Source: a virus. Taken from it: 64,000 nt of DNA. The stretch spans positions 1 through 64,000 of IMG/VR virus record IMGVR_UViG_3300005617_000005; one strand, 5' to 3'. This document shows positions 3,545-64,000 of this stretch, in pieces. A program made the position numbers and the translations under genes. The notes beneath the pieces were generated by a model. That model saw only the letters and a list, made by a program, of their open reading frames with translations. It was not told the DNA's origin and ran no database searches. The stretch's first letter is position 1; every line of letters starts with the position of its first letter.

Positions 3545-3547
3545 CGA

Positions 3548-3553: not shown

Positions 3554-3560
3554 CTCGCAC

Positions 3561-4121: not shown

Positions 4122-4137
4122 TCGCCAAACGGCGTGA

Positions 4138-4143
4138 TAGGCT
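4138..4143 (+). promoter_or_regulatory. -10-like hexamer TAGGCT for leaderless start
   Basis: TAGGCT six bases before GTG 4150; same octamer context as at 3548. Confidence 0.5.
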
Positions 4144-4149
4144 CGTCTC

Positions 4150-4724: not shown

Positions 4725-4733
4725 GAGGGCAAT

Positions 4734-6720: not shown

Positions 6721-7355
6721 ACCCGATCGAACAGCTCGCGCGCGGACTCGGCGCAGGACCCTTCCAGCGAATCCCATCAGCCGGAACGATCGCGCCGCCG
6801 CAACCGCGTGTCGGCCCATCACCGATGGCGACTGCGACACCGCCCGTGCTGACGTCGGAGGGAACGAGCCGTCGGATGCGCATGGAGCAAGCCCTACCGA
6901 CGAACCAATCGTCGGTCGGCTCCAACTATCAGTGGGCGATCTTGAACGTGGCGGCGAACATCGGCGGTCACACGTTCCAGGCTGGCACACGGATCGCGGT
7001 CGCACCGTCACAAACGTCGACGAGCGGCGGCGGAAAAGCGCACACGACGTCCATCGTGACGAAAGTTTGGGCCAAATTCGGCCAGACGTTCGACGCCTCA
7101 AGCTGGGTCGAGGGCGCGATCTCCTCAAGCTTGTACACGCTCACCGGGCAGACGGCGACGTGGAGCACCTCGACTGGATTTGGCGCGATCGACGAAGGCG
7201 CGAAAACCGCAGCGGTTGGCGGACTCGGATTCGCCGGCGGTTTTCTCATCGGTGCGGCCGTCGGCGCGGTTGCGCTCTTGATCGGCGCGGACATCTATTA
7301 CACACGAAAAGAGCAGAACGAGCGCTACCGACGCGCCGGCTACAGCGGCCGTTGA
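6717..7355 (+). CDS. C-terminally membrane-anchored protein with RMEQALP motif
   Basis: 212 residues. The N-terminus MNPIEQLARGLGAGPF carries GLG at 10-12. A motif RMRMEQALP then, about a dozen residues on, YQW recurs in the 13568 product. The middle is Ser/Thr/Gly-rich, and a C-terminal span (GFAGGFLIGAAVGAVALLIG) is followed by a charged tail with several Arg. Likely a virion membrane protein. Confidence 0.7.
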   Translation: MNPIEQLARGLGAGPFQRIPSAGTIAPPQPRVGPSPMATATPPVLTSEGTSRRMRMEQALPTNQSSVGSNYQWAILNVAANIGGHTFQAGTRIAVAPSQTSTSGGGKAHTTSIVTKVWAKFGQTFDASSWVEGAISSSLYTLTGQTATWSTSTGFGAIDEGAKTAAVGGLGFAGGFLIGAAVGAVALLIGADIYYTRKEQNERYRRAGYSGR

Positions 7356-7357
7356 TG

Positions 7358-7363
7358 TAGACT
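7358..7363 (+). promoter_or_regulatory. -10-like hexamer TAGACT for leaderless start
   Basis: TAGACT six bases before ATG 7370; it lies just after the previous stop. Confidence 0.5.
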
Positions 7364-7369
7364 GCGCTC

Positions 7370-7846
7370 ATGCTCTTGTGCATGGGCAGAGACGTCGCGT
7401 TCCTGATGCGCAGCGGCCACGAGTTCGAGGCCAAGCGCAAACGAGACGGCATGTTGTACGACTCGACCGGCAAACACTGGTCGAAAGACAGCCTGCTCAT
7501 CGCGCCGTTCGAGCAAGGCGAAGACGAGGTCGAGCACGACGGCGCGCGCGACTACTTCGGTTCCGACTACGCGATCTTCCGCGGCGGCATGATCCCACCA
7601 CCGCGTTCTTTGAAAGATGGCTGGCGCAACCTCGGCGAAGTGAAAGAGATCTACTACGACCGCGCCGGCAAGTACGAAGGGCCGTTCAAGCATGCGTTCA
7701 ACAGACCGCGCGGAATGTGGCGTCTGATTTTCCCGTTCTCGCGCCGCGCGAAAGGGCCCGCGCTGCTCTACGCGCGCAAAGGTTGCTACCGCGTCGAATT
7801 TCCCGAAGGCGCGCTCATCGACACACGCGGAATCGTTTTGCCCTAG
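7370..7846 (+). CDS. Hypothetical soluble protein
   Basis: 158 residues without a membrane span or signal peptide. Beta-rich, with paired aromatic/charged stretches (YFGSDYAIFRGGMIPPP, GMWRLIFPF). It starts a new transcription unit by its TANNNT box. Its stop shares the four bases CTAG (7843-7846) with the stop of the convergent gene. Family not recognised. Confidence 0.7.
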   Translation: MLLCMGRDVAFLMRSGHEFEAKRKRDGMLYDSTGKHWSKDSLLIAPFEQGEDEVEHDGARDYFGSDYAIFRGGMIPPPRSLKDGWRNLGEVKEIYYDRAGKYEGPFKHAFNRPRGMWRLIFPFSRRAKGPALLYARKGCYRVEFPEGALIDTRGIVLP

Positions 7847-8136
7847 CGCTTCTTGCGCGGCCAGAGCGTGTAGACCGCAAGGCTCGTGCTGATCAGCGAA
7901 CCGATCCCGAAGACGAGTGCTGCCCGACGATACGACGTCGCAGCTTCGTCGTACTTGTTCGCGGAAGACAAAAGAAGCGCGCGAGAATCCGGATCGGCTC
8001 GAGGTGCCATGTCGCGAGCAGCATTCGCGTCTTGTGACGCCGCCGATGCCTTCGTGTAGTCGTCGTACGCTTTGTACCCCGTGAGGCTCGCGGCAACGAG
8101 ACTGCTCACACCGAAGACCCACTTCTCGGCTGCCAT
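7843..8136 (-). CDS. Two-span membrane protein with coiled-coil core
   Basis: 97 residues. MAAEKWVFGVSSLVAAS forms the first span and VFGIGSLISTSLAVYTLW the second, ending PRKKR. The central 50 residues are Ala/Asp-rich helical. The start is the ATG seven bases downstream of a minus-strand TACTCT; a longer frame upstream is probably not used. Confidence 0.7.
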   Translation of the reverse strand: MAAEKWVFGVSSLVAASLTGYKAYDDYTKASAASQDANAARDMAPRADPDSRALLLSSANKYDEAATSYRRAALVFGIGSLISTSLAVYTLWPRKKR

Positions 8137-8143
8137 GCTCGCG

Positions 8144-8149
8144 AGAGTA
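8144..8149 (-). promoter_or_regulatory. -10-like hexamer TACTCT for leaderless start (minus strand)
   Basis: Reads TACTCT on the minus strand, seven bases before ATG at 8136. Confidence 0.45.
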
Positions 8150-8169
8150 ACGCGCAGGCGGTGCAATTT

Positions 8170-8337
8170 CTATGTGGGCGAACCCGAAGCGCCACCGGCG
8201 GCGCCGCCTTGCGCGATGCCCTTGGCCGTATCCGACGTCGGAAGGCTCTTCGGGCGGATGAAGAGAAAGTAGACGGCCGTCCCTACAATTCCGAGGCCGC
8301 CAACCACCAAAAGTGCCTTCTTCGTCGACTTCTTCAT
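8170..8337 (-). CDS. Small membrane protein (55 aa)
   Basis: Starts MKKSTKKALLVVGGLGIVG and continues TAVYFLFIRPKS into a Gly/Ala/Ser tail: a short basic N-terminus, one glycine-rich span, and a basic stop-transfer end. The gene is supported by a minus-strand TAGTGT six bases before the ATG and by its resemblance in layout to other one-span proteins of the virion block. It sits upstream of the 7843 gene on the same strand. Confidence 0.7.
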   Translation of the reverse strand: MKKSTKKALLVVGGLGIVGTAVYFLFIRPKSLPTSDTAKGIAQGGAAGGASGSPT

Positions 8338-8343
8338 TCCCTG

Positions 8344-8349
8344 ACACTA
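8344..8349 (-). promoter_or_regulatory. -10-like hexamer TAGTGT for leaderless start (minus strand)
   Basis: Minus-strand TAGTGT six bases before ATG at 8337; diverges from the plus-strand promoter at 8403-8432. Confidence 0.5.
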
Positions 8350-8402
8350 CCACGGGTGGAAATTGCACCGCATCGCCTGGGACGAAGTCTCTGCGCCAGT
8401 GA

Positions 8403-8432
8403 TTGCATCGGTGCCCGATCCGCGCGTACACT
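8403..8432 (+). promoter_or_regulatory. Promoter TTGCAT-N18-TACACT, leaderless
   Basis: TTGCAT at 8403-8408, 18-base spacer, TACACT at 8427-8432, then seven bases to GTG 8440. Confidence 0.5.
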
Positions 8433-8439
8433 CCCCGGT

Positions 8440-10083
8440 GTGGCCAGCTACAGCGAGATCATGGCAAAGCAGCGTGACGCTGCACCCGATCACGCCGCAG
8501 CGTCGCGCAAACGCGTACCGGTCCTTCATGCAGACGAGAGGAAAAAAATGAAGCGCAAGCGACGAGCAACGAAAGCCCAGCTTCGGGCGCTCAAGAAAGC
8601 TCGAGCGGCGAAGCGCCGCAAGCACGCCGGCGAGGGCGTCGTCCGTCGCGCGAAGAGCGGCAAGTTCTCGAAGCGCGGCAAACACATTGCCGGTCGCGTC
8701 GGTGCGGAAGCACGTCGTCGTCGGCGAGGAAAGAAGCGTCGTCGCAGCGCGCGCGAGGCAGCACCGCCGCGCACGAAGCGAAACCGCGCAGCCACGAAGG
8801 CGCAGAAGCGCTATTTGCGCGCCGCACGCAAGGCGAAAAAGCGCCGGAACACGTCGTCGCAGAAGGAGCTTCTGGCCGCGATCCGCGGATTGAAGCCCTA
8901 CGCACCTCGTCGCAAGAAGCGAAAAAAGGGCAAGCGACGCAGTGGCAAGAGCACCAAGCGCTTGACGAAGCGCACGAAACGCGCTTCGCTACGGAAAGCG
9001 AGCACTCGTGCGGGGATGTCGAGGCGTTCAGCGAAAAAGAGGAAGAGCATGGCCCGCAAGAGGAAAAAGTCAGGTCGTCGTCGCAAGGGACATCGTCGCG
9101 CCACGAAGAAACAACTTCGTGCGCTCTCGAAGGCGCGTGCTCAGCGCAAGCGCAACTTGCGCCGCGGTCGTGGCCGTCGCCATCGAGTGAAGGGCTACGT
9201 CGCTCGTCGGCGCAAGTCGCGTTGGCGAGTTCCGTCGCACCTCTCGCGAGAGGCGCGTCGTCGTCGCCACGCGCACGCATTCGACAACCCGATGGACGGG
9301 ATCGAGTTCGGCATCGCGCTCTTCACCGGTCTCATCGGCTACGGCGCGATGAGCTTCGGTCGCCGCTACCTCGCTGCTCACCGACCGGAGGCGAGCGGAT
9401 CGCTTTCGGGCGTGATGGCGATGGAGCTCGCACCGATGGATTGGAAGCAGTGGTTGCTCGGCGCCGTTCTCACGATCGGTCCGACAGTCGGCGGCCACTT
9501 CATCAAGAACAAACCGCTTCGCAGCGTCGTCCAGGGCTTCGGCTTTGGCGCCGGCATCGCGACCGCGGGCAAAGCGCTCGACGACGGCATCGCCATGCTC
9601 ACGAAGAAGACCGAGCTCGGCGCGCTGCTCTACGCGCCGGAAGTTTCGGCGCAGGCGTACACCAAGCCGCAAGGCACGGGCGCCGGCGCTCTTCCGGAAG
9701 GCGAGTGCGAAACGTGCGGGCGCAGCGACGGTCTCGGCAAGTGCTGCCGTTCGTCGTACACGGGCGCACCGAACCGCATGGACGTGCGAGACAACCCGCC
9801 GTCCGTTCCTCCGGCGCAAGCCCAACCCCCGATCGAGGCACCGCCGCCCGTCGTCAACAACATGACGCCGCGTGACATCCCCGTGCCGCCGGCGCCTCCT
9901 CCGCCGCCGCAGATCGCGCAACCGCAGACGCCGACGTTCACGCCGCAAGTGCCCATCGGGCAAGCGTCGCCGAGCCCGGTGCCCGCAGCACCGATGCCGC
10001 AATCGCCGATCGTCGGCGTGCGTGGCTTCCCGAACAGGATCGCCGGACCCAACTACAACTGGGGCAACCCGAGCGACAACTGA
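8440..10083 (+). CDS. Histone-H1-like basic repeats fused to membrane domain and Pro-rich tail
   Basis: About 547 residues. After roughly 36 ordinary residues, a stretch of about 245 is extraordinarily rich in Lys and Arg, with three copies of a motif like RRATKAQLRALKKARA. An R/H-rich end (ARRRRHAHAFDNP) leads into hydrophobic segments (IEFGIALFTGLIGYGAMSF; WLLGAVLTIGPTVGGHF), a CETCGRSDGLGKCC cysteine cluster and a Pro-rich C-terminus. It probably binds DNA and sits in a membrane, perhaps tethering or condensing the genome. GTG 8440 has the TANNNT box; ATG 8548 has GAGAGG six bases upstream and is a credible alternative start. Confidence 0.75.
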   Translation: MASYSEIMAKQRDAAPDHAAASRKRVPVLHADERKKMKRKRRATKAQLRALKKARAAKRRKHAGEGVVRRAKSGKFSKRGKHIAGRVGAEARRRRRGKKRRRSAREAAPPRTKRNRAATKAQKRYLRAARKAKKRRNTSSQKELLAAIRGLKPYAPRRKKRKKGKRRSGKSTKRLTKRTKRASLRKASTRAGMSRRSAKKRKSMARKRKKSGRRRKGHRRATKKQLRALSKARAQRKRNLRRGRGRRHRVKGYVARRRKSRWRVPSHLSREARRRRHAHAFDNPMDGIEFGIALFTGLIGYGAMSFGRRYLAAHRPEASGSLSGVMAMELAPMDWKQWLLGAVLTIGPTVGGHFIKNKPLRSVVQGFGFGAGIATAGKALDDGIAMLTKKTELGALLYAPEVSAQAYTKPQGTGAGALPEGECETCGRSDGLGKCCRSSYTGAPNRMDVRDNPPSVPPAQAQPPIEAPPPVVNNMTPRDIPVPPAPPPPPQIAQPQTPTFTPQVPIGQASPSPVPAAPMPQSPIVGVRGFPNRIAGPNYNWGNPSDN

Positions 10084-10100
10084 TCTCCGAGATTTCGAGA

Positions 10101-10140
10101 TGCTTGAGCCCCAACGACGAAAGTCCGAGGGGCTGAGGCA
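10101..10140 (+). promoter_or_regulatory. Structured RNA element, copy A, before capsid candidate
   Basis: A 40-base element that folds as an outer stem (TGC/GCA), an AGCCCC/GGGGCT stem, a small internal loop, and an apical GAC-GAAA-GTC hairpin. The copy at 11733 keeps the layout while the apical pairs change to GGA-GAAA-TCC. Not a normal terminator: no T-tract follows. Confidence 0.55.
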
Positions 10141-10206
10141 TTGAAAAGACCAGAGTCGCTCGTCATACAGGTCTAGGAACTACCGAGCGAAAAGAAAGAA
10201 GAAGAC

Positions 10207-11673
10207 ATGCAGAAGATCACGCAAGAGCGCAGCCGTCCCGAGCCGACCCGAAGCATCAACCGCACCCCGATCGTCAATCGGATCAAGGTCGACAAGGACC
10301 TTCGTGACCGACGCACGATCGGTCTCGGCGTGCGCCCCGACGAGAGCAAGCTGAAGGCGGCGAACGCCGGCCTCGGCAAGCTCAAGGACGGACACATGCC
10401 CGATCCGAAGGAGCTCGGACTCGGCGCTCCGTTCAAGGGCGGCGAAGGCGCGCCCCCGATCGCGTCGCAGATCGTTCGTCGTGGCCTCGGCGATTTCGTC
10501 GACGCCATCCGCAACTCGGTCGCGTGCCCGATCTGGAACATGCCGGTCGTCGAGAGCTCGCGCGGCACCTTCGGTGGCCCGCTGCTCGACACGGACATCA
10601 CCCGCCTCTTCGGAGCGAGGATCAATCCGTTCGGCTGGAACGACACGACCGAGGGTCTCGACTCGTTCGACACCACGCTCGCGGAGAACGGCAAGACGCA
10701 GACGGCGATGCTCGTTTGCGCGGTCGGCTGGAAGCTCCAGCCCGAGCCGCTCTGCTTCACGCAGGAGATCAACGCGTGGACGGCGCCGGAGTCGACGGCG
10801 ACGCAGCCGTTCTCGCCGAACAACTTCACCACGAACGACCTCGCTGCGATCCTCGGCCAAGCCGTGGACACGCAGGACTTCGAGCCCGCCGTGCTCGAGT
10901 GGGGCTGGCCGCAGAACTACGCGTGCTGGCACATGGTCCGTGGCTACCACCTCCGCTGGATGGTCGGTCAGCACACGAACATCTTCGACGAGTCGCTCCG
11001 CAACACCGCGGTGATGCCGACGAACGCGCAAGAGGGCTCGGCGTCCTCGAGCGAGGTCGACATCAACGAGTTCATCCGTCGGGTGAACGACCGGTACACG
11101 GGTACCGGCGGTCTCGGCAGCAACATGGTCGCCCTCAAGTTCGACACGATCCGCCTCGGCGTCGTGGCGGGCGGTGGCAACGTCGGTCGCTTCGCTCCGT
11201 CGCGTACGGGCGAGCTCGCTGGCGCGACCTACGGCGGCATGGACCTCCGCAGCTTGCTCAAGAACAACGACGAGTTCCGCAAGCTCACGATCCCGTACTT
11301 CCTCAACGCGGCGATCCCGATCGGGCTCTTCGCGCAGGAGTCGGACAAGTTCCAGGCGGACATCATGCGCGCGTACCTCTCGGCGACCCAGTCGCCGGGC
11401 AACGCGGGCGGAACCGTTCCCCCGGCGATCGTCGACGCGGCGAACATCGCGCTCGGCCCGACGTCGGCGTTCCTCGAACGCACGATGGATGGCGCTGCGG
11501 ACGTCTCGCAGACCGTCTTCTCGCAGCGACGCCTGTTCAAGGGTGGCGATCTCAAGGTCGAGGTCGACATCAAGGGCTTCGAGGTCGACGAGGACTGGTA
11601 CAACGTCCTCAAGAACAACCCGGAGCTCCGGGACGCGTTCATGTGCGAGTGCGGCTGCGGCTGGCCGAAGTGA
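10207..11673 (+). CDS. Major capsid protein candidate
   Basis: 488 residues, soluble, no spans. The first 95 residues are basic and contain four GLG tripeptides (39-41, 55-57, 71-73, 93-95), as if a flexible or cleaved N-terminus. The rest is beta-rich (TAMLVCAVGWKLQPEP; YHLRWMVGQH; VALKFDTIRLGVVAG) and ends in a Cys-rich tip (CECGCGW). It is a long protein in the centre of the virion block and is followed by two smaller beta-rich proteins. I see nothing typical of the HK97 fold; a double-jelly-roll fold is possible but unproven. AAGAAAGAAGAAG precedes the ATG. Confidence 0.5.
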   Translation: MQKITQERSRPEPTRSINRTPIVNRIKVDKDLRDRRTIGLGVRPDESKLKAANAGLGKLKDGHMPDPKELGLGAPFKGGEGAPPIASQIVRRGLGDFVDAIRNSVACPIWNMPVVESSRGTFGGPLLDTDITRLFGARINPFGWNDTTEGLDSFDTTLAENGKTQTAMLVCAVGWKLQPEPLCFTQEINAWTAPESTATQPFSPNNFTTNDLAAILGQAVDTQDFEPAVLEWGWPQNYACWHMVRGYHLRWMVGQHTNIFDESLRNTAVMPTNAQEGSASSSEVDINEFIRRVNDRYTGTGGLGSNMVALKFDTIRLGVVAGGGNVGRFAPSRTGELAGATYGGMDLRSLLKNNDEFRKLTIPYFLNAAIPIGLFAQESDKFQADIMRAYLSATQSPGNAGGTVPPAIVDAANIALGPTSAFLERTMDGAADVSQTVFSQRRLFKGGDLKVEVDIKGFEVDEDWYNVLKNNPELRDAFMCECGCGWPK

Positions 11674-11732
11674 TTCGGCACGAAGCAGATTGACGGCGCG
11701 CGAGCGCAATCTTTTCGCTTCGACATTCTAAC

Positions 11733-11772
11733 TGCCTGAGCCCCGACGGAGAAATCCCGAGGGGCTAAGGCA
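11733..11772 (+). promoter_or_regulatory. Structured RNA element, copy B, before second capsid candidate
   Basis: Same 40-base length and fold as 10101-10140, with compensating changes in the apical stem (GGA/TCC for GAC/GTC) and T to C opposite G in the outer stem. Both copies are followed by TTGAA(A/G)AG. Here the element ends 13 bases before the ATG. Confidence 0.55.
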
Positions 11773-11785
11773 TTGAAGAGGCCCG

Positions 11786-12532
11786 ATGCCGAAGCTGACA
11801 GAAGAAGAGACCGAACGCCTCCTGGACAAGATGGTCGAAGACCGCATCAAAGCGGTCGGCCTCGGTGGTCTCGGACAGCATTCGCCGATCGTCTCGCCGT
11901 CCGGCCTTGGAGCTGCACCGCGCGTCGGGCTCGGCTGCGGTGAAGATGCGGTCGTCCAGATGCTCCACCACGGCTACCCGCGGCTCGCGCTCGTTCGCGC
12001 GCTCGGCGTGCCGCTCGCTCCGTGGGTCATCAGCATCCCCTTCACGTTCGACACGCCAGAAGCAGAGCAGACGCTCGCGAACCAGGGCACGGACGGCACG
12101 ATCACGCAGGATGTGTTCGTCGAGGCAATGGTCACACGCGTGACCATCGATCGCGTGCCCGTCAGCCCGTTCGATGCTCCGGGCGACTACGCCTACAACT
12201 TCACGTCCGGCATCGAAGCAACGCTGCAAGTCGACGGGACGCCGCGCTACGAAGTCACGACCGACTTCACGCCGCTCTCGACGCTCACCGACGTGTTCAA
12301 CGGCAACTCGAAGTGGCCGTTCTCGTGGTGCTTCACGTACATGCAGCAACTCAAGATGCAGCTCCGGAATCGCATCCAGCTTCCGGATGCGCCGGTGACC
12401 GTGATCATCAGCTTCCGCGGTTGGCAGCCGGTGACCGATCTCCTCGTCAACATGACGAACCGAAACGCCGTCGAGCGTTTGCGGCAACTCGGCTACACCG
12501 TTCCGGACAGCTATCTCGACTACTTGCGCTGA
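11786..12532 (+). CDS. Capsid-associated beta protein (vertex or minor capsid candidate)
   Basis: 248 residues. A helical N-terminus (TEEETERLLDKMVEDR) is followed by four GLG tripeptides within the first 50 residues. The remainder looks like a single beta sandwich (VFVEAMVTRVTIDRVPV; SGIEATLQVDG; VTVIISFRGWQPV). It directly follows the main capsid candidate and has the same RNA element upstream. Jelly-roll vertex protein is an inference. Confidence 0.5.
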   Translation: MPKLTEEETERLLDKMVEDRIKAVGLGGLGQHSPIVSPSGLGAAPRVGLGCGEDAVVQMLHHGYPRLALVRALGVPLAPWVISIPFTFDTPEAEQTLANQGTDGTITQDVFVEAMVTRVTIDRVPVSPFDAPGDYAYNFTSGIEATLQVDGTPRYEVTTDFTPLSTLTDVFNGNSKWPFSWCFTYMQQLKMQLRNRIQLPDAPVTVIISFRGWQPVTDLLVNMTNRNAVERLRQLGYTVPDSYLDYLR

Positions 12533-12551
12533 TGGGCGCTGAAGGGCGCTC

Positions 12552-13571
12552 ATGAGTGACGACGAGAAAAAGGAGCTGAGAGGACGAATCGAGGTGCTCG
12601 AGCGCCGCCTCGTTGGTCTCGGCGATCGTCCGAGCCCGACGTCGTCGTTGTTCGGCAGCAAGATTCTCTCAGCGGCCAAGCCGAAGAGCATCGAGTTCAC
12701 GTCGAAGGGCGTCGACGAGGCGCTTCAAGGCATCGCGTCCGATGCGTGGGGCGGTCTACTCTGGCCGGGCCTTCGCGTGCCGACGCTGCCAACGCCGGAC
12801 CCGGAGCATCGCTATCTCTTTCTGCTCTGCTCGTTCACGATGTCCGCCGGCGACACCGCGCGCATCGACGGTCTCCGCAACGGCTGGTCGATGGGCTTCG
12901 ATCAAGTCACAAATCCGGGACAACAGGGGGAAACGCACCGCATCGTTGAGCAATGGATCAAGAGCCCGCTCTACAAAGGGCCGGACTTCAACGTGCTCTT
13001 CCACTTGCGCAAGCTCACGATCAACGAGCCACGACGCCCGAACCCGAGTGCCGTCGTCGATCCCGTGACGGGCTTTCTCGTTAGCACGGCGTTCAAGACG
13101 TCGGACACGCCCGCGCTGCTCTACAACACGATCGGCGGCGCCGTCGGCAACCCGTTCTACACCGGCCTCACCGGCTACGTGCCGCCGAACCGCGGACGTC
13201 CGTGGGGAAAACCTCTCGGCGGTCTCGGATCGTTTCAGGACATCAAGGCCGATTGGAGCAACCCCGGCGCGTGGCACGCGCTCGACATTCCGCTCAGGGG
13301 CCCGTGCCGCGTCGCGCTCTACGCGAGCGTGCAGCAAGGCAACCCCGCGACGCGCACGTTGCTCGACGTGCCGGGTGGGTCGATGGCGGATTTCCCGCTC
13401 GGACTTTCGGCCGAGGAGCAGTTCCTCGCGAAGTGGAGCGTCGCGCCGCTGACAGCGCAGCGACCGGGCCCGATCGCGTGGCGCGTCGCCGGCGCGCTTC
13501 GAGTGAAGTTCGAGGACATCACTCCGGGCTCGTCGATGTTCCGGAACTTCGTCATGGACGGTGAGAAATGA
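12552..13571 (+). CDS. Third capsid-block protein, beta-rich
   Basis: 339 residues. Short N-terminal coiled coil (DDEKKELRGRIEVLERRL) ending VGLGDRPSP, with GLG at 22-24 as in the neighbours. The body is beta-rich, with aromatic strands (RYLFLLCSFTMSAG; WRVAGALRVKFED). No membrane span. Probably a virion protein, for example a second capsid or vertex component. Its stop overlaps the next start (ATGA). Confidence 0.5.
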   Translation: MSDDEKKELRGRIEVLERRLVGLGDRPSPTSSLFGSKILSAAKPKSIEFTSKGVDEALQGIASDAWGGLLWPGLRVPTLPTPDPEHRYLFLLCSFTMSAGDTARIDGLRNGWSMGFDQVTNPGQQGETHRIVEQWIKSPLYKGPDFNVLFHLRKLTINEPRRPNPSAVVDPVTGFLVSTAFKTSDTPALLYNTIGGAVGNPFYTGLTGYVPPNRGRPWGKPLGGLGSFQDIKADWSNPGAWHALDIPLRGPCRVALYASVQQGNPATRTLLDVPGGSMADFPLGLSAEEQFLAKWSVAPLTAQRPGPIAWRVAGALRVKFEDITPGSSMFRNFVMDGEK

Positions 13572-14560
13572 GACGCAATCTTCTTGCGCTGGTTCGTGAA
13601 CCCGTTTTCCGGACGCCGGCGATCGACCAGAACGCGCCGCTTCCGACGCCGGCGCCGGGTGAAGCACTGCCCGGCGAGTACGGAGCCGCGGAGATCGCTC
13701 GTCGAGCTCGAATGGAGCAAGCGCTTCCGTCCGGTGAGAAAAAGTCTCCGCCGTATCGTCCGCCGCCGTACCAGTGGGGCGGCCTCCACGGAATCTCGAA
13801 GCAGAACCACGTCGCTGCGCTGAAACACCTCGCCGGTCTCGGTGGTGTGTGGTGCATGCACAAAGACAATCCGCCGCAGCGCGCGCCGCGCGGGTTCGGC
13901 GCCGGCGGCGCATCGGCGTTCACGATGACGGCCGCGCAAGCGCTCAACGATCATCTCGATACGAACAACTGCGCCGGCTGCAACGACATGACGTCGCAGC
14001 TTCGACAGCTCACGTTCGCGTTCAAGGCCGCGTACCTCACGGACACGGGGATCGCGCCGCAGGTGAACCTCAACATGAGCAGCGCGCTCGCGATGACGGC
14101 CTACGGGCCGGGCACCGATCAAGCGCTCGCGCTCGTTCTCGGCGCTGCGAAGTCGTACACGAACGGTCCGTGCACCGACGACAGCGGCAACTGCCTCGGA
14201 AAAACCCCGACGCCGATCATCCCGCCGGCGGTCTCGGCGCTCGAGCAGCAAATCGTCAAAGCGATCATGAGCGCGATCCAGCAAGCGCAATTCCTTCCGC
14301 AGCCCGAGCTCGTGAACGGGCTCGTGCAGGGCTTCGCCGCGCTGGTCAACCAGATCGGATTCGAGCTCGCGAAGCTCAATCAGCCGAAGGACGGCCCGAC
14401 GTTGATCGTCGACAAAACCGATCCGACCAAGACCGTCGTCGTGACAACGCCCCCGAAAGAGGGCTGGACTACGGGCGAGAAGATCGCCGCCGGCGTCGGC
14501 GCCGGCGTCGCGCTCACGGCAGTGGCGCTTCTCGTGTACAATGTCGCCAAAAGGAGCTGA
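13568..14560 (+). CDS. C-terminally membrane-anchored virion protein candidate
   Basis: 330 residues. RARMEQALP then PYQW echoes the 6717 product. A helical region contains HVAALKHLAGLGGVWCMHKD. The middle part is Ala-rich helix, and the C-terminus has one span (IAAGVGAGVALTAVALLVY) ending NVAKRS. Isolated Cys pairs (CAGCND) may bind metal. Family not recognised. Confidence 0.65.
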   Translation: MRRNLLALVREPVFRTPAIDQNAPLPTPAPGEALPGEYGAAEIARRARMEQALPSGEKKSPPYRPPPYQWGGLHGISKQNHVAALKHLAGLGGVWCMHKDNPPQRAPRGFGAGGASAFTMTAAQALNDHLDTNNCAGCNDMTSQLRQLTFAFKAAYLTDTGIAPQVNLNMSSALAMTAYGPGTDQALALVLGAAKSYTNGPCTDDSGNCLGKTPTPIIPPAVSALEQQIVKAIMSAIQQAQFLPQPELVNGLVQGFAALVNQIGFELAKLNQPKDGPTLIVDKTDPTKTVVVTTPPKEGWTTGEKIAAGVGAGVALTAVALLVYNVAKRS

Positions 14561-14564
14561 GACT

Positions 14565-15209
14565 ATGAACCGTGTAGCGGCACTTCACCAATTGGCTCGA
14601 GCGCATCACGGGCTCGGGCGTGCGCGCGGAGAAGGTCTCGGCATTCCTGGTCCGTGGGGCAACGTTCCGGGGCAAGCGATCGCCGCTGGCACGTACGAGA
14701 TCAGCGGCACGCAGGTCTACCTGCGCGAGCAGCCGTCGACGTCGTCGGCCGACAAGGGCGCGTTCAACGCCACGTACGGCGACAACGGCGGGAAGGTCGT
14801 CGGCGAGCCGGATCAGGTCGACTTCGATGGTCAGACCGGCGATCAGGGCGGTCTGCGCTTCGCTTCCGTCACCGTGAAGACCGGCGCGCTCGCCGGCAAG
14901 AGCGGTTTCGTCGCGATGAAGTACATGGCGCCGGTCGGTTGGACCGCGTCGCACGGCGGAACGGGCTCTGCACCCGCGGCACCGCCGCCGGTCGATCAGG
15001 GCGGTGGGGGTGGAGGCTCGACGCCGCCGCTCGCAATGACGGGCGACGCGTCCGAGAAGTGGAAGCCGTGGCTCATCGGCGGGATCGCGGCGCTCGGCGC
15101 CGGCGGTCTCCTCTATCTGCTCTTCGGCACGAAGACAGGCAAGAAAGCTCGCCGGCGCGGCAAAGCACGCAGGCGTTTGCGCCGCATCCGTCGCGGCCGG
15201 AAGCGCTAG
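14565..15209 (+). CDS. SH3-like domain protein with C-terminal membrane anchor
   Basis: 214 residues; AAGGAG eight bases upstream. N-terminus MNRVAALHQLARAHHGLG matches the 6350 product. Residues about 45-125 resemble a bacterial SH3 domain (TYEISGTQVYLREQPS to GFVAMKYMAPVGW), a fold often used to bind peptidoglycan. A Gly linker leads to one span (WLIGGIAALGAGGLLYLLF) and a long Arg/Lys tail. Possible role: a virion membrane protein touching the cell wall during entry. Confidence 0.7.
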   Translation: MNRVAALHQLARAHHGLGRARGEGLGIPGPWGNVPGQAIAAGTYEISGTQVYLREQPSTSSADKGAFNATYGDNGGKVVGEPDQVDFDGQTGDQGGLRFASVTVKTGALAGKSGFVAMKYMAPVGWTASHGGTGSAPAAPPPVDQGGGGGGSTPPLAMTGDASEKWKPWLIGGIAALGAGGLLYLLFGTKTGKKARRRGKARRRLRRIRRGRKR

Positions 15210-23961: not shown

Positions 23962-25124
23962 CTCCATTCAATTCGACGTGCTGGATCACTTCGTTCGCCG
24001 CCCTTGCACTCGCCACGGCAACAGAAAAGGCCGACCTCTTTGCTCGTGTAGACGTGCCCGCGCGCGCACGCCGGCGGCGCCGCAGGCTCGCCGTCTGGAA
24101 GCGCGACCAGGCCCGCCAGACGACCACCTTCGTCGCGGCGGTTGTCGTCGTAGAGCGTGACCGTTTGGATGCTTCGATGCCGACTGAAGCGCTGTACGGC
24201 GCGTACGTCGCCGCCGGTTTTGTCGAGAGCGGCCGTGATCGCAGAGTGCCGAAGGCCGTGCGGGCGCGCTTTCACACCCACATCCAGACCGAGCGCCACG
24301 ATCACCGAGTAAAGGCCCTCGCCCGACAGCCGATGACCGCGGTGATTGTCGTCGAGCGCAGTGAAAAGGGGCCCTGGCGACGCTCCACGGACCGCCAGCC
24401 ACGCTTCGAGGGCCTGTTTGGTCGCCGGCGGCAGCGTGATCCACTGGCGCTCGTGGCGGCCTTTTCCGAGGATCGCCAGACCGCGCATGGCGTTGTAGTG
24501 CTTTCGATCGAGCTCGAGCACCTCTGACCGCCGTAGCGCGCAGTCGAAGAGCAGACGAACGAGCGCCGCGTCGCGCAAACCCTTGGGATCACCCCGCTCG
24601 GTAACACGTTGTAACATCGCCGAAATAGCCGCGGCACCTGGACCACGTGTGTCGCGGTACTGATCGGAGCGGATCCGGTCTACTTCGATCGACCACGCGC
24701 AGAGGCCCAGCATGCGCCCCAACTTGAGCAAAGCCTTCAGCGCAGACAAACGGCGGTTGATCGTGGCCGGTGTGAGCCGATCTTCGACCATGACGCTGCG
24801 ATAACGGAGCACGAGCGCGTTTCCGTCGCCGCTGTCGCACGCGAGCAGTCTGCGCGCCGCTTCCTCGGCGGTTGGTAACTTGAGGAATGCAGTGAAATTT
24901 TCGATGTCGCGCGTGTACGCCCGCAGTGTGTTCGGGTTTCGGCCGCGAAAGAACGCCTCCAGGAGCTCGCGCGCGCCGTTTCGCGGCGGTGCAACGCTCG
25001 GCGCTGCTATTTCCACCGCCGTCGGCACTGTTATCGCGTGATCGGACCGCGGTGAACCGCCGTCGACGGTTGCTCGAGCGAGCTCGCCGCCAGTGTTTTC
25101 GCGCAAATCCCCATCGCGCATCAC
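23958..25124 (-). CDS. int: Tyrosine recombinase / integrase
   Basis: 388 residues. N-terminal SAM-like core-binding region (NPNTLRAYTRDIENFTAF), then the catalytic domain: Arg in FDCALRRSEVLELD, Lys region LAILGKGRHERQW, HGLRHSAIT (His-x-x-Arg), then RFSRHRSIQTVTLYDDNR with the second His and the nucleophile Tyr. All catalytic positions seem present. It could integrate the genome or resolve multimers. The only tRNA-like attachment candidate I see is far away (54393). Confidence 0.9.
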   Translation of the reverse strand: MMRDGDLRENTGGELARATVDGGSPRSDHAITVPTAVEIAAPSVAPPRNGARELLEAFFRGRNPNTLRAYTRDIENFTAFLKLPTAEEAARRLLACDSGDGNALVLRYRSVMVEDRLTPATINRRLSALKALLKLGRMLGLCAWSIEVDRIRSDQYRDTRGPGAAAISAMLQRVTERGDPKGLRDAALVRLLFDCALRRSEVLELDRKHYNAMRGLAILGKGRHERQWITLPPATKQALEAWLAVRGASPGPLFTALDDNHRGHRLSGEGLYSVIVALGLDVGVKARPHGLRHSAITAALDKTGGDVRAVQRFSRHRSIQTVTLYDDNRRDEGGRLAGLVALPDGEPAAPPACARGHVYTSKEVGLFCCRGECKGGERSDPARRIEWR

Positions 25125-25238
25125 GGATCACGGTACCGATAACAGTTATTTCTGCAAGCGCAGCAGTGTTTGAAGTTGACGTAACTACTTGAAATCATTG
25201 ATGAATTCGACGAAAACGACGTGATCTCTCACGGATCG

Positions 25239-25258
25239 CGACGATCGCGCGATCGTCG
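25239..25258. promoter_or_regulatory. 20-base perfect palindrome, operator candidate
   Basis: CGACGATCGCGCGATCGTCG reads the same on both strands. It lies mid-way between the integrase and the rightward promoter; a repressor site is the natural guess. Confidence 0.4.
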
Positions 25259-25408
25259 TTTGCGCCAGCACAAATGCTGCGCGCCCAGTGCGCGCGGCGT
25301 GCGAAACGCCAGCACGGAGCAACGCGCGGATCGGGTCACGGATGGATCGGCCAGTCCGCGCGCAATGTGGGGGCCTGTTTTCAGGGTCGAAAAAAGAGCG
25401 CGGCAACG

Positions 25409-25437
25409 TTGACAGATACGCTAGAGTGCATTAGTAT
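25409..25437 (+). promoter_or_regulatory. Near-consensus promoter TTGACA-N17-TAGTAT, leaderless
   Basis: TTGACA 25409-25414, 17-base spacer, TAGTAT 25432-25437, then seven bases to ATG 25445. It is the strongest promoter seen in the window and drives the long rightward cassette. Confidence 0.75.
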
Positions 25438-25444
25438 GCACTCA

Positions 25445-25642
25445 ATGAGCCAGCATCCCCCACACCGGAAAGCTACGCACGTAGCCACGGACCTTGGACG
25501 GGATGAAAGCGGATCGTTTCGTGCCGTCACTTTGGAGTGTGGGCACGTCCTAAAACTGAACGCGATCTACGCCTACCGGACGGGAGACCAGCACGTGTGC
25601 TGGGAATGCCTCAAAAAAGAATCTTCAAAAAAGAGTGCATAA
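25445..25642 (+). CDS. Small zinc-ribbon protein, first gene of the cassette
   Basis: 65 residues. LECGHVLKLNAIY and VCWECLKK form a CxH...CxxC zinc site, a pattern common in small phage proteins. The start is fixed by the promoter: the mRNA should begin at about the ATG. Upstream in-frame codons are probably untranslated. Confidence 0.65.
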   Translation: MSQHPPHRKATHVATDLGRDESGSFRAVTLECGHVLKLNAIYAYRTGDQHVCWECLKKESSKKSA

Positions 25643-25690
25643 CAACGCACGGTGCTACGTCTGACTTTGAAACCAGGGAGAATCGAGACG

Positions 25691-29133: not shown

Positions 29134-29143
29134 AAAAATTACT

Positions 29144-29229
29144 GGCCCATTCGTGGGCCGGACTAGTCGCGCGATTGGTGGACGGAGGTTCCCTCCCTGG
29201 TTCCCCGGTCAATCGCGCGCCTAGTCCGG
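29144..29229. other. Strong intergenic RNA/DNA structure
   Basis: Immediately after a stop codon lies GGCCCA-TTCG-TGGGCC (29144-29159). Next comes a 20-base arm (29158-29177) complementary, with one mismatch, to 29210-29229. Its 32-base loop holds a GGAGG-TTC-CCTCC hairpin. No T-tract follows. Confidence 0.6.
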
Positions 29230-29261
29230 CGCATGACGCGACGGACAACAAGGAAACGGGG

Positions 29262-29480
29262 ATGCAAGAGACGAGCGTGACAATGACGTGGACGTGCGAC
29301 GTGTGCGGCGGTACCGCCACGACGCCGCGCGGTCTGCCGGACGGGTGGCGCGAAGTGCGCATCGCTCAGTGGAACAACGCGGGTCACGAAGGTGACAAGC
29401 ATCACGTCTGCGGCAGCGACGAGCCGTCGTGCTTTCGACGGTTGCTGATCAAGCTCGCGAACGAGGACAAGCGGAAATGA
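29262..29480 (+). CDS. Zinc-ribbon protein (72 aa)
   Basis: WTCDVCGGTATTPRGLPDGW, HHVCGSDEPSCF: four-Cys/His ribbon. GGGG precedes the ATG. The DGW-x-phage zinc-ribbon pattern is widespread; role unknown. Confidence 0.65.
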   Translation: MQETSVTMTWTCDVCGGTATTPRGLPDGWREVRIAQWNNAGHEGDKHHVCGSDEPSCFRRLLIKLANEDKRK

Positions 29481-58485: not shown

Positions 58486-60180
58486 ATGAAGAAAAAGAAA
58501 CGCAGGGAACGATCCCGTCGCGAACGCGCTGACACGGCTGACGCGACAGATCGCGTGACGTTCAACCTCACGGAGATGAGGAACGCCGAACGTCTGCTCG
58601 AATTCCGTGGCGATGATCTCCGCTACGTCGGCCCGTGGAAGATGTGGCTCACGTGGGACGGGCGACGCTGGAAACTCGACGAGGATGGGGGCGCGCTCCG
58701 CTACGCAAAGGAAAACGCGCAGGTCATGGCAGCCGAAGCCGACGTCGCGGTGAAGAACGCGCAATCGACCGTCGACGAGGAGATCGAAGAGGACGCCGAA
58801 TCGATCGCGAGCGAAGAGAAGAAGCGCGGTCGACCGCGAAAGCCGAAGGCGTCGACCGAAGCGCTCGGAATGCTCAAGGGCGCGTCCGCCTACAAGAAGT
58901 GGTGCGAGCAGAGCCAGAACTTCCGGAACCTCCAGAGCACGCTCTCCGTTGCGGCGTGCGACAAATCGGTCGCGCTCGTTCACGACCAACTCGACACGCA
59001 CCACTTTCTCTTCAACGTCGAGAACTGGACGATCAACCTGAAGACCGGCAAGAAGCAGCCGCAGTCGCGCGACGATCTCATCACGAAGGTCGCTGCCGTC
59101 GAGTTCCACTCGAAAGCGAAGTGCCCGCTCTGGGACAGGTTCGTGCGCGAGGCAATGGGCGGCGACATGGAGCTCGTCGGGTACCTGAAACGCTTCGTGG
59201 GCTACTCACTGACGGGCTCGACGGAGGAGCAAGCGCTCGTCTTCTTCTGGGGCTCGGGCAACAACGGCAAGAGCACGTTCCTCACGACGCTCTACAAAAT
59301 CTTCGGCGACTACGCCCTACGCGCCGCGCGCGGCATGCTCTTTCGCTCGAAGCACGGCGGCGAGCGCCATCCGACGACGCTCGTCAGCCTCCACGGCAAG
59401 CGCTTCGTGACGTGCAGTGAGATCGACGAGAACCAGGAGCTCGACGAGGGCCTCACGAAAGATCTCACCGGCAGCGATCCCATCAACGCGCGCCGCATGC
59501 GCGAAGACGAGTGGGTGTTCTTGCCGACGCACAAACTCTTTCTCGCCGGCAACCACAAGCCGCGCATCACGGGCACCGACAAAGGGATCTGGCGCCGAAA
59601 CAATCTCGTCCCGTGGACCGTCGCGGTCGCGAAGGACAAGGTGAACAAGAAGCTCGGCGACGAGCTGCTCGAAGAGGCCAGCGGCATCCTCAACTGGTGC
59701 ATCGAGGGCTGCATGGAATGGCAAGAGCGCGGACTTGATCCGCCCGAGGCCGTCATCGAAGCGACGAAGGAGTACCGCAAAGAGCAGGACGTCCTCGGTC
59801 AGTTCTTCGACGAGCGACTCGTGTTCGAGGAGAACGCACTGGCGGCTCGAGCCGACCTGCGAAAGATCTACGAGGACTGGTGCGAGGAGTTTGGCTACTT
59901 GCCCGTCGGCGCGCGGAAGTTCGCGCAGGCGCTCCGCGAGCTGAGCGTCGTTGATGGCTACGTGTGGGATCCGAACAAGGCCCAATCCGTCGACGGCTGG
60001 CGCGGCGTGCGCATCGCGACGAAGGCCGATCGCGCCAAGAAGGAGCTCGAGCGGCGCGGAAAACAGATGTCGAAGAAGGAACGGCGCGCGTTCAAGACGA
60101 TGGTGAAGAAGGCGAATAAAGGAGCAGTGAAGCTTCGGATCGTCCGGAACGACGAAACGAAGTCCCGAGGAGATCGCTAA
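58486..60180 (+). CDS. D5/P4-type SF3 replicative helicase
   Basis: 564 residues. A basic/helical N-terminus and D5_N-like region (WDRFVREAMGGDMELVGYLK), then an SF3 ATPase: Walker A GSGNNGKST (256-264), Walker B area CSEIDENQELD, and sensor LAGNHKPRITGTDKGIWRRN. The C-terminal winged-helix region is followed by a Lys/Arg tail. With the prim-pol next door it likely unwinds and primes at the origin. GGGG directly precedes the ATG. Confidence 0.9.
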   Translation: MKKKKRRERSRRERADTADATDRVTFNLTEMRNAERLLEFRGDDLRYVGPWKMWLTWDGRRWKLDEDGGALRYAKENAQVMAAEADVAVKNAQSTVDEEIEEDAESIASEEKKRGRPRKPKASTEALGMLKGASAYKKWCEQSQNFRNLQSTLSVAACDKSVALVHDQLDTHHFLFNVENWTINLKTGKKQPQSRDDLITKVAAVEFHSKAKCPLWDRFVREAMGGDMELVGYLKRFVGYSLTGSTEEQALVFFWGSGNNGKSTFLTTLYKIFGDYALRAARGMLFRSKHGGERHPTTLVSLHGKRFVTCSEIDENQELDEGLTKDLTGSDPINARRMREDEWVFLPTHKLFLAGNHKPRITGTDKGIWRRNNLVPWTVAVAKDKVNKKLGDELLEEASGILNWCIEGCMEWQERGLDPPEAVIEATKEYRKEQDVLGQFFDERLVFEENALAARADLRKIYEDWCEEFGYLPVGARKFAQALRELSVVDGYVWDPNKAQSVDGWRGVRIATKADRAKKELERRGKQMSKKERRAFKTMVKKANKGAVKLRIVRNDETKSRGDR

Positions 60181-60377
60181 ATTACCGATGTTTTTGGGGT
60201 GCCTCGGGACTTCAGAGGGTTTTCTGGGTTAGCACGCACACGAAACCAAAATAAATACCGATGCAGAATGCACACATGAATATTTCTCGTTTCTACAGAG
60301 CTGATATGCGGATCAAGTCCCGATGTCCCGAGACCCCTCAAAAACACCGAGAATTTGACGATCTCCTCGGGACTTCG
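60158..60377. other. Candidate replication origin (AT-rich, inverted repeats)
   Basis: A 19-base arm at 60158-60176 is perfectly complementary to 60359-60377. Inside are another CCTCGGGACTTC (60202-60213), a CAAGTCCCGA (60314-60323) and TCCCGAG (60326-60332), around an AT-rich core (60241-60310). TACCGATG also occurs twice. The region lies between the helicase and the prim-pol genes. Confidence 0.5.
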
Positions 60378-60379
60378 AC

Positions 60380-60634
60380 ATGAGCCGAACGCCTCGAAAG
60401 GTGCTCGCGCGTTGTAAAAGCCTCGTCGGCGCCCGCGTTCGACTCACGCGCGTCGTGACCACGAAGGGCGGAGAGTCGTACGAGATCGGCTCGCTTTGGC
60501 GCGTTTCTTCGACGTGGCGCGGGCGATTCACACTGATCGGCATCACCGCCAACGGCAGCGATCAAATGAAGAACGGCTGCATCGCGCGGTACGTTCGCTG
60601 CGTCGGCGAATACTCCTTCGAGCTCGTTTCATGA
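60380..60634 (+). CDS. Hypothetical protein (84 aa)
   Basis: Beta-rich (RVRLTRVVTTKGGESYEIGS; RGRFTLIGITANGS), reminiscent of a small SH3 or KOW-like barrel. The start lies two bases after the origin repeat. Unknown. Confidence 0.6.
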   Translation: MSRTPRKVLARCKSLVGARVRLTRVVTTKGGESYEIGSLWRVSSTWRGRFTLIGITANGSDQMKNGCIARYVRCVGEYSFELVS

Positions 60635-60876
60635 AGACGCACGTCTTGGCTCCGCACGGCCGGCACTCGGTGTGCGGCCTTCAGTGGATGCGAATGGGCG
60701 ATCTCTCGAAGGGGCGCTTTGTTGGAGAGAACGCTGCAACCTGCAACCTCTGTCGTCGCGGTCGACAGGGTCAACGCCGAAAAGAGGCGTGTGCTCTTTG
60801 CAACGAACCGAGCAGCGCGCATCCGGTCGGCGAGGGCGTGTTCCAGCATGACTTCAAAGCTAAGGAACCCGAATGA
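60631..60876 (+). CDS. Small zinc-binding protein (81 aa)
   Basis: VCGLQWMRMG, ATCNLCRRG and CALCNEPSSAH: two Cys/His sites. Sits between the origin region and prim-pol; a DNA-binding role is plausible. Confidence 0.6.
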   Translation: MKTHVLAPHGRHSVCGLQWMRMGDLSKGRFVGENAATCNLCRRGRQGQRRKEACALCNEPSSAHPVGEGVFQHDFKAKEPE

Positions 60877-61988
60877 AGCGCGACGCTCTCCGCTACGCCC
60901 GCGAACTCGAGTGGCCGATCTTTCCGATCTACGCCCCGCTCGAAGACGGATCCTGCTCCTGCGGCAAGCGTCACAAATCCGCCGGCAAGCATCCGCGAAC
61001 GTGGCGTGGTGTGAAAGCGGCGACGACGAACGTGAAACAGATCAAGAAGTGGTGGCGCTTGTGGCCTGACGCGAACATCGGTCTGTCGACGGACAACGGT
61101 CTTGTGCTCGACATCGACGGCCCGAAAGGCGAACGCGATCTGCGGCGACTCGAAAAGAAGTACGGCAAGCTCCCAAAGACCGTCGAGGCTGTCACGCGCA
61201 AGGGTCGACATCTGTTCTTCGGCGTTCGCAAACGTGTTCCGTGCGGCACGCACGTGCTCGGCTCTCTACAGATCGACGCGCGCGGCAAGGGCGGCTACGT
61301 GCTCCTCGCGCCGTCGCGGCATGCGAGTGGCTTCTGCTACCGCTGGAAGCGTTCGCCGTTCGATTGCGCTCTGGCGGATGCTCCACGATGGCTGGAGAAG
61401 CGGCTGCGGTGCAATTTCAACAAGCAGACATCGAAGAAGAAGCTCAAGGATCGAAAGGCACTGCGTCTGGGCGCGTCCGGGGCCAGAGATCAATCACGGT
61501 CCGGTGTAGACGCCCGCAACGTGCTCGCGCTGATGCGACAGGGCGCGAGCGACGACGAGGCGCGCGACATGCTGCTCAAGTCGTCGAGCAAAGCGCGTGA
61601 GGAGGGCGATCGCTACATCGATCTCACCATCGAATGGGCTCGCAGCTTCCATCAAGAGGGCTTGGCGCGCGTGCGTGTGCTCTCTGCGCGGATCGAACGC
61701 CTGGGGGCCACTGCGGCGCAGGGCCGACTTGTGCGGATCGTGCTCATCACGACGACGCGCTTCTGGAAGCGCATCAAGTTGCAGGTCGTCGTACCGTCGA
61801 AATCCTACTGCTCGAAGAAGATCAAAGACACGTTTCGCGCGGTCGTCGGCAAGCGCGCAAAGCCCCGTGAATTGCGGCGCTTTGCGCACGGCCGCGACGT
61901 TCTATTTTTGTTCCCTACAGAGCTGCGTTTCGACGTTGCGCGCGATCGTTTCGGCAATGTGCGCTTTGTGCGCGCTCTGGCGCAGTGA
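60873..61988 (+). CDS. Archaeo-eukaryotic prim-pol (primase/polymerase)
   Basis: 371 residues. Residues 1-175 match the bifunctional prim-pol N-domain: LEWPIFPIYAP, AGKHPRTW, ANIGLSTDNGLVLDIDG with the metal site D80-I-D82, RKGRHLFFGV with His113, and DARGKGGYVLLAPS. The C-terminal half is a separate alpha domain (LMRQGASDDEARDMLLKSSS). Primes, and may extend, viral DNA alongside the D5 helicase. ATGA overlap upstream. Confidence 0.9.
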   Translation: MKRDALRYARELEWPIFPIYAPLEDGSCSCGKRHKSAGKHPRTWRGVKAATTNVKQIKKWWRLWPDANIGLSTDNGLVLDIDGPKGERDLRRLEKKYGKLPKTVEAVTRKGRHLFFGVRKRVPCGTHVLGSLQIDARGKGGYVLLAPSRHASGFCYRWKRSPFDCALADAPRWLEKRLRCNFNKQTSKKKLKDRKALRLGASGARDQSRSGVDARNVLALMRQGASDDEARDMLLKSSSKAREEGDRYIDLTIEWARSFHQEGLARVRVLSARIERLGATAAQGRLVRIVLITTTRFWKRIKLQVVVPSKSYCSKKIKDTFRAVVGKRAKPRELRRFAHGRDVLFLFPTELRFDVARDRFGNVRFVRALAQ

Positions 61989-62217: not shown

Positions 62218-62262
62218 ATGACAATGAACAAGGAAAAGGCACATGGCGCGCGCCGCCAGTGA
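62218..62262 (+). other. 14-codon minigene overlapping Sak4 start
   Basis: After GGGG, ATG-ACA-ATG-AAC-AAG-GAA opens a 14-codon frame ending in TGA 62260-62262, which overlaps the Sak4-like start at 62243 in another frame. Its opening matches the minigene at 51557. AAAAGG inside it can serve as ribosome site for ATG 62243. Confidence 0.35.
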
Positions 62263-62965
62263 GCTGAAGCGATCACGTTTCATCAAGGTCTTGCTGATGG
62301 GACCGCCCAAAATCGGCAAGACGACAATGGCCGTCGCCACGGCCCCGAAGCCCGTTCGGTGCTTTCTCTGCGAAAGCGACAGCGCGCTCCATAGCGCGCG
62401 CCGGTACGTCGGCGACAATTTCACGTTCGAGCGCACGCGCACGCACAAACGGATGCTTAGCGCTCTGCACGAAGCGCGCACCGACGTGAAAAAGGGGCGG
62501 CTCAGGACGATTGTGGTCGATCCGCTGTCGCTTCTCGCGGCGAACATCGAGGAGCACTGCCTGAAAGCTCACAACCAGAACACGTACAAGGCGTACCCGA
62601 TGTACGGCCGGCTGATCCGCCAAGTGATCGAGCAACTTCTTGATCTGAAGTGCCACGTCATCGTCGTGACGCACTACATCGAGACTGGCGGCGAGATGCC
62701 TGAGGGCACCGCGCACACGGGTGAAGGCATCGTTCCCATGCTCGCCGGCAAGGCGCGCGCGACGGTCTCTGCGCTCTTCCCGGACGTCGTGTGGATGGAC
62801 TACTACAAGGGCAAGCGCATCTTGGTCACCGGACCGCAAGGAGCCTGGGGACCCGGCTGCCGAAGCACGAACGGCACGCGGGTCATCCCCGCGGACATAG
62901 AGCTCGATGAGGGCCGCATTGGTGTGCGCGCTCTCATTCGCGAGTTCCGCTCGACGAAAAATTAG
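62243..62965 (+). CDS. Sak4-like RecA-fold ATPase / single-strand annealing recombinase
   Basis: 240 residues. Walker A GPPKIGKTT (20-28), Walker B-type strand RTIVVDPLSLL, sensor HVIVVTHYIET, and C-terminal RATVSALFPDVVWM. The size and motifs fit the compact phage Sak4 family (AAA_24-type), which usually lies beside an SSB, as here. It would anneal or pair ssDNA during replication and repair. Start chosen with AAAAGG three bases upstream. Confidence 0.82.
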   Translation: MARAASELKRSRFIKVLLMGPPKIGKTTMAVATAPKPVRCFLCESDSALHSARRYVGDNFTFERTRTHKRMLSALHEARTDVKKGRLRTIVVDPLSLLAANIEEHCLKAHNQNTYKAYPMYGRLIRQVIEQLLDLKCHVIVVTHYIETGGEMPEGTAHTGEGIVPMLAGKARATVSALFPDVVWMDYYKGKRILVTGPQGAWGPGCRSTNGTRVIPADIELDEGRIGVRALIREFRSTKN

Positions 62966-63051: not shown

Positions 63052-63762
<711 letters not shown>

Positions 63763-63801
63763 TCGTCACGGGCTCGAGTGCCGCTTCGGCGGCGCTCGCA
63801 G

Positions 63802-63890
63802 CTCGAACGATGCGCACGTCAACCTGGAGGGCAACGGCCCCTCGAAAGAGGATGTGAATCCTCCGGGTCAATGCGTGCGCATCGTTCGAG
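63802..63890 (+). promoter_or_regulatory. Large structured RNA element before the adenine methylase
   Basis: A 17-bp outer stem (63802-63818 with 63874-63890, perfect), an inner 8-bp stem (63823-63830 with 63860-63867, one G-U), and a CCTC-GAAA-GAGG hairpin (63840-63851). The joining loops look conserved-type (TCAA/TCAATG). The element ends nine bases before ATG 63900. Confidence 0.6.
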
Positions 63891-63899
63891 GTGCGAGGG

Positions 63900-64000
63900 A
63901 TGAAGAAAGAATCGTGTTTGCCGGCCGTGAAGTGGGCAGGAGGAAAGCGTCGGCTTCTGCCGGAGCTACTCAAGTACGTGCCGAAGAAAATCGACATGTA
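63900..64000 (+). CDS. DNA adenine methylase, 3' truncated
   Basis: Only the first 33 residues are in the window. LPAVKWAGGKRRLLPELLKY is the N-terminal AdoMet-binding motif (KWAGGK) of Dam-type N6-adenine methylases. GCGAGGG precedes the ATG. With the cytosine enzyme at 29877 it gives the virus two DNA-modifying activities. Confidence 0.85.
   Translation, partial: MKKESCLPAVKWAGGKRRLLPELLKYVPKKIDM

Follow-up and report, generated by a model that had tools for sequence, protein, structure and literature searches.

A predicted replication origin of inverted iterons directly behind a D5-type helicase gene in a 77.9-kb phage record

We propose that a 220-bp element at positions 60158-60377 of the phage DNA analysed here (the window: bases 1-64,000 of a virus record of 77,874 bp) is the replication origin of this phage, of the kind opened by a self-loading SF3 helicase, and we put the probability of this reading at roughly 0.8. 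The anatomy of the element, its position, its gene neighbours, the predicted fold of the adjacent helicase and a layout shared far above chance with distant relatives together make an origin the best supported interpretation. An earlier note on the same DNA had already suggested an origin, and comparison now supports that prediction: the position, the inverted iterons, the easily melted core and the predicted winged-helix C-terminus of the helicase match those of Streptococcus thermophilus phage Sfi21 and of the SaPI, SCCmec and PICI systems. Known phage origins are few, and a simple scan behind D5-type helicase genes recovers the annotated origin of Sfi21 and proposes one in 21 of 55 clusters of relatives. 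A single protein and a short piece of DNA would suffice to test each origin predicted in this way.

The element is framed, as the earlier note had described, by a perfect 19-bp inverted repeat enclosing 182 bp (Table 1). This is the longest perfect inverted repeat in the record at gaps of up to 400, and it exceeds the longest one in every one of 60 dinucleotide shuffles of the record, which ranged from 12 to 17 bp. The 19 bp are the tip of an imperfect inverted repeat with 56-nt arms that are 84% complementary and stand 108 nt apart, and each of these arms is bounded at its own ends by a 12-bp inverted repeat. When inverted repeats were scored with +1 for a match and -2 for a mismatch at loops of 15-300, the region reached 29, while shuffling these 500 nt 300 times gave no score above 12; the region ranked first among 310 windows of the record, all others scoring 21 or less. 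The DNA between the arms is indeed AT-rich: the inner 182 bp have a GC content of 45.6% and positions 60214-60321 one of 43.5%, against 62.0% for the record, and the stability minimum of the record falls inside the element whether stretches of 60, 100 or 180 bp are compared. Both ends fall where the note had put them, the left arm overlapping the C-terminus of the helicase gene (stop codon 60178-60180) and the right arm ending two bases before an ATG at 60380. Measured from the last base of the helicase gene, the element starts 22 bp before it and ends 197 bp beyond it.

Within this frame lie five strong copies of an iteron, AAGTCCCGAGG, which is GGGACTT on the opposite strand. Three inner copies face the AT-rich core from both sides, the right-hand pair being arranged in tandem, and two outer copies face outward; the inward-facing iterons thus flank the least stable DNA of the record on both sides, with a left inner set of one strong copy. 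Three additional core copies reported inside the repeat are present, one exact on the minus strand (60202-60210) and two with one mismatch each (60317-60325 and 60325-60333). Across the whole window, core matches with at most one mismatch number 25, compared with 25.5 expected by chance, and five of the 25 sit in the 220-bp element. An iteron matrix gives a score of at least 11 at just one place in the record outside the element, five of the six high-scoring matches lying inside it. The order of the copies in this phage, + - + - with outward-pointing outer copies, departs from the usual layout among relatives, which is ++|--.

Table 1. Features of the proposed origin and its gene neighbourhood (window positions unless stated otherwise).
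Feature	Position	Strand	Remarks
D5-family (SF3) helicase gene, proposed initiator	58486..60180	+	winged helix predicted at residues 436-510; Pfam, AlphaFold2 model, PDB matches
Proposed origin of replication, whole element	60158..60377	.	repeat scores and class comparison
Left 56-nt arm	60158..60213	+	perfect 19-bp tip at 60158-60176; 12-bp inverted repeat within the arm, 60159-60170/60202-60213
Outer left iteron copy, AAGTCCCGAGG	60160..60170	+	GGGAC directed away from core
Inner left iteron copy	60202..60212	-	GGGAC directed into core
AT-rich core, proposed melting region	60214..60313	.	the 60- and 100-bp stretches of lowest stability in the record begin at 60248 and 60208
Inner right iteron copy 1, AAGTCCCGATG	60315..60325	+	GGGAC directed into core
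Right 56-nt arm	60322..60377	-	perfect 19-bp tip at 60359-60377; near-perfect 12-bp inverted repeat within the arm
Inner right iteron copy 2, ATGTCCCGAGA	60323..60333	+	8 bp from copy 1
Outer right iteron copy	60365..60375	-	GGGAC directed away from core
Small ORF, 84 aa	60380..60634	+	no family match
Small ORF, 81 aa	60631..60876	+	no family match
Prim-Pol gene, proposed primase at the origin	60873..61988	+	Pfam Prim-Pol 8e-39; separate from helicase gene
Sak4-like gene, same replication module	62243..62965	+	AAA_24; phrog_124
PolA-type polymerase gene	64891-67401 of record		further downstream

The protein encoded immediately upstream carries the Pfam domains D5_N (1.5e-25), DUF5906 and Pox_D5, and its solved relatives by sequence are AsfvPrimPol chains and the SaPI5 primase 7OLA (3.7e-9). 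Its AlphaFold2 model (mean pLDDT 91.7) is matched best by the SaPI5 primase-helicase 7OM0 (Z 30.1 over 390 residues), followed by AsfvPrimPol (Z 28.8), vaccinia D5 (28.1) and NrS-1 (20.4). In the predicted fold, residues 436-510 follow the winged-helix order of helix, strand, helix, helix, strand, strand, and the C-terminus modelled alone matches RFX winged-helix domains (E 1.1e-3, with a probability of 1.00, and 7e-3) as well as AsfvPrimPol and, weakly, Orc1/Cdc6 initiators. On the strength of these models the helicase is predicted to have a C-terminal winged-helix domain, which may bind DNA; the final ~50 residues of the protein are an extension missing from most relatives. The earlier note had placed the site between the D5 helicase and prim-pol genes. 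The helicase gene does lie directly upstream, but Prim-Pol is not the next gene on the other side, as two small ORFs come first.

We propose a mechanism in which the C-terminal winged helix of the helicase recognises the GGGAC iterons, and two hexamers assemble face to face on 60202-60212 and 60315-60333, where the iterons point inward. The facing hexamers would melt the AT-rich core between them, and the Prim-Pol of the same gene cluster would then prime the DNA strands so exposed, serving the phage's own PolA-type polymerase. The two outer copies, which point outward, would make each flank a palindrome capable of forming a hairpin; they probably help assembly or limit firing, and hairpin extrusion is a further possibility.

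Sfi21 was picked as a control because its origin is known. The record of this phage annotates an 'origin of replication, 302 bp non-coding region, phage inhibitory sequence'. The experimental claim (Foley 1998) is taken here as given in PMC6356513, where a plasmid with the Sfi21 element is reported to replicate only on infection and to reduce the yield of phage. The annotated origin begins 28 bp before the end of a D5-type helicase gene, compared with 22 bp in the window. The same scan found there CTTTAGTTACTTAGTTAC and its exact complement, an iteron-built inverted repeat of 18 bp without mismatch that encloses 71 nt of AT-rich core; no further repeat in the 10.7-kb stretch scanned scored 12 or more. 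Like the element in the window, the Sfi21 origin sits directly behind the helicase gene, begins in its last codons and consists of a perfect inverted repeat of iterons around an AT-rich core; its neighbours are Sak4, SSB and a separate Prim-Pol gene, the first and last of which the window shares. It differs in its iteron (GTTACT), in its arms, which are tandem where those of the window are palindromic, in its shorter core, and in the Prim-Pol gene, which lies upstream of the helicase gene.

According to PMC7581432, SaPI Rep and SCCmec Cch2 use their C-terminal domain to recognise repeats that directly follow their own genes; the isolated domain also binds the repeats, and binding by Cch2 required direct repeats and not inverted repeats. 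As in the window, the iterons of the SaPI/PICI rep-ori module and of the putative SCCmec Cch2 origin lie immediately 3' of rep, and in PICIs they form two sets flanking an AT-rich region; their initiator is a self-loading helicase with C-terminal DNA binding, of which the window encodes a predicted counterpart. These systems reside in genomic islands, whereas the window comes from a phage record of 77.9 kb that encodes its own polymerase, and the window differs from them in its outward-facing copies, which form palindromes. According to PMC4234260, the plasmid pRN1 depends on a 100-bp stem-loop located behind the prim-pol/SF3 gene; the authors suggest the same for phage BIP-1. In pRN1 a large inverted repeat (21-nt stem) thus encloses a long loop (58 nt) behind a prim-pol/SF3 helicase gene; the window resembles it in this arrangement, and its repeat has stem-loop potential. 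The pRN1 site is described as being without iterons, which are present in the window, and its primase and helicase are united in one protein.

For a survey of helicase relatives we sampled IMG/VR (528 confirmed, 80 of them kept) and GTDB genomes (80 retained out of 377) and added four named phages. Eight of the 164 loci with a helicase stop had less than 300 nt downstream and were omitted, and the other 156 fell into 55 clusters; one 40-aa stub (L094) was excluded from protein alignments. The scan ran from -100 to +400 around the helicase stop with a score threshold of 14. The cut-offs of this first survey were set before the result was seen, and 14 was then retained for a fresh set. A score of 14 was reached behind the helicase in 21 of 55 clusters. 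Among random windows from these loci 5 of 660 did so, and among intergenic windows 1 of 108 (Fisher p 1e-10 for the latter comparison). The four named phages (L005-L008), which make up four of the 55 clusters, were all above the threshold, and without them the count is 17 of 51. Relatives above the threshold include phi105, AcaML1, ZoeJ and Methanoculleus virus L4768. The fresh set of 17 named phages was more distant and its rate was lower, with 4 at score 14 against none of 204 control windows (p 2e-5). Since 34 of the 55 clusters and 13 of the 17 fresh phages fall below the threshold, the layout is common, not universal.

Where the layout occurs, it is tied to the end of the gene: in 18 of the 21 the first base of the repeat falls between -30 and +100 relative to the helicase stop, and the GC content of the core is below that of its own locus in 15. 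The arms of many relatives are tandem units of ~9 bp followed by a T run toward the inside. An 8-mer in at least four copies is found in 21 of 55 clusters compared with 9 of 550 controls, and the window also has four; a criterion of at least three copies was dropped, as 91 of 550 controls have it. In the six of 26 members with at least three copies in the element, GGAC points inward in 30 of 30 cases, and the inner set of the window does likewise. Covariation between iterons and the domain was not detected among the 26 members when arm similarity was compared with C-terminal-domain identity (Mantel r 0.07, with 397 of 2000 permutations as high). Single-protein scans of IMG/VR returned no close relative for the helicase or the Prim-Pol and one weak partial match for the Sak4-like protein, and the highest identity in alignment scans was 40% in IMG/VR and, over part of the protein, 44% in GTDB genomes. 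As a separate observation, the core in the window contains GCACGCACACG, and the cores of the predicted origins L006, L010, L063, L142 and L164 hold alternating purine-pyrimidine runs such as CACGCGCGTG.

The survey also bears on other explanations of the element. It is possible to see in it an operator or autoregulatory site, where a phage regulator or the helicase itself would bind the palindromes and control the small ORFs and Prim-Pol downstream; the closeness of the right arm to the ATG and the palindromic arms, like those of many operators, fit this idea, which could coexist with an origin. We nonetheless consider it unlikely, for a search for promoters of the sigma-70-like type found none in 60000-60500, the motif is not spread over the other promoters of the record, and in the class survey the layout goes with the end of the D5 helicase gene whatever gene comes next, with an iteron sequence that varies between members. 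Alternatively, a long hairpin in the transcript might end helicase transcription or hide the start of the next gene, whose ATG has no obvious ribosome-binding site, and as RNA the region does fold far better than shuffles (z -6.8). Such folding is expected of any long inverted repeat, however, 60000-60500 yielded no intrinsic terminator, and Rfam gave no match at the gathering threshold, one sub-threshold microRNA match being taken as chance. The arms of relatives are tandem direct repeats around AT-rich cores, so protein-binding DNA fits better than an RNA fold, and we regard an RNA element as very unlikely.

A MITE-like remnant, that is, a 220-bp insertion whose terminal inverted repeats are the 19-bp perfect ends, is hardly credible and already disfavoured, as the record has no second copy, phage and plasmid records gave no match, IMG/VR gave no exact match to the arm pattern, no target duplication was seen at the element's ends, and relatives with different sequences have the same layout in the same place. 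Inverted binding sites around an AT-rich core occur in recombination and partition sites too, but we give almost no weight to a site of that kind (attP, resolvase or par-like), since the 36 proteins scanned against PHROGs, a subset of the ORFs, included no member of an integrase or partition family and the position is tied to the helicase gene.

GC skew was a further line of comparison for the proposed origin. The raw cumulative minimum lies at 58,398, 1.8 kb from the site, and coincides with a switch in gene strand, so that it is confounded by gene direction. Among plus-strand genes the change point falls at 52.5 kb when the whole record is used (3 of 1000 permutations as good) and at 47.7 kb for 41-78 kb (0 of 1000 as good), and strand-normalised skew has no switch at 60158-60377. 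Skew therefore does not locate the origin and neither favours nor disfavours the site. Points that weigh against an origin are this missing switch, the + - + - order of the copies, the lack of covariation between arms and C-terminal domain, the relatives below the threshold and the need of Cch2 for direct repeats.

Our survey extends to ordinary phages an origin layout once called unique to PICIs, and the wide use of this layout by ordinary phages that the sequences suggest bears on the source of PICI replicons. A D5-type helicase is carried by 1429 phage records. Beyond the works cited, the literature searched, mostly outside subscription journals, showed no paper recognisable as linking D5 helicases to 3' origins in phages as a general rule, although one may exist elsewhere. 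We tentatively suggest, as something a little short of an even bet, that D5-helicase phages in general use inverted iteron arrays directly behind the gene as their default origin, and that such arrays are not a PICI trait, such that origins would be predictable from sequence for a large share of the 1429 records. This phage would then represent a nested form, in which outward copies fold each flank into a hairpin and so unite the iteron type of SaPIs with the stem-loop type of pRN1.

Several other features of the DNA deserve mention. The sole other place with 108-bp stretches as GC-poor as the origin core is an AT-rich gap of 662 nt at 25029-25690 with divergently placed genes on either side, likely a divergent promoter region. 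Downstream of the replication genes, 63052-63762 is a gene with a long Asp/Glu-rich tail whose weak PHROG match to a head maturation protease (6.7e-6) is probably due to this low-complexity acidic tail. Between it and a DNA methyltransferase gene, the non-coding stretch 63763-63905 has a very stable RNA fold (z -8.5), the strongest among 34 intergenic gaps scanned, with a 17-bp perfect stem (63802-63818/63874-63890), a CUCGAAAGAG cap and a side hairpin; it has no Rfam match and is a candidate structured RNA. A second structured intergenic stretch, 29134-29262 (fold z -2.9), contains a 20-nt inverted repeat with one mismatch, beginning CCGGACTAG. Finally, the presumed structural region (1-15200) includes six large genes without a PHROG match, which suggests unusual virion proteins.
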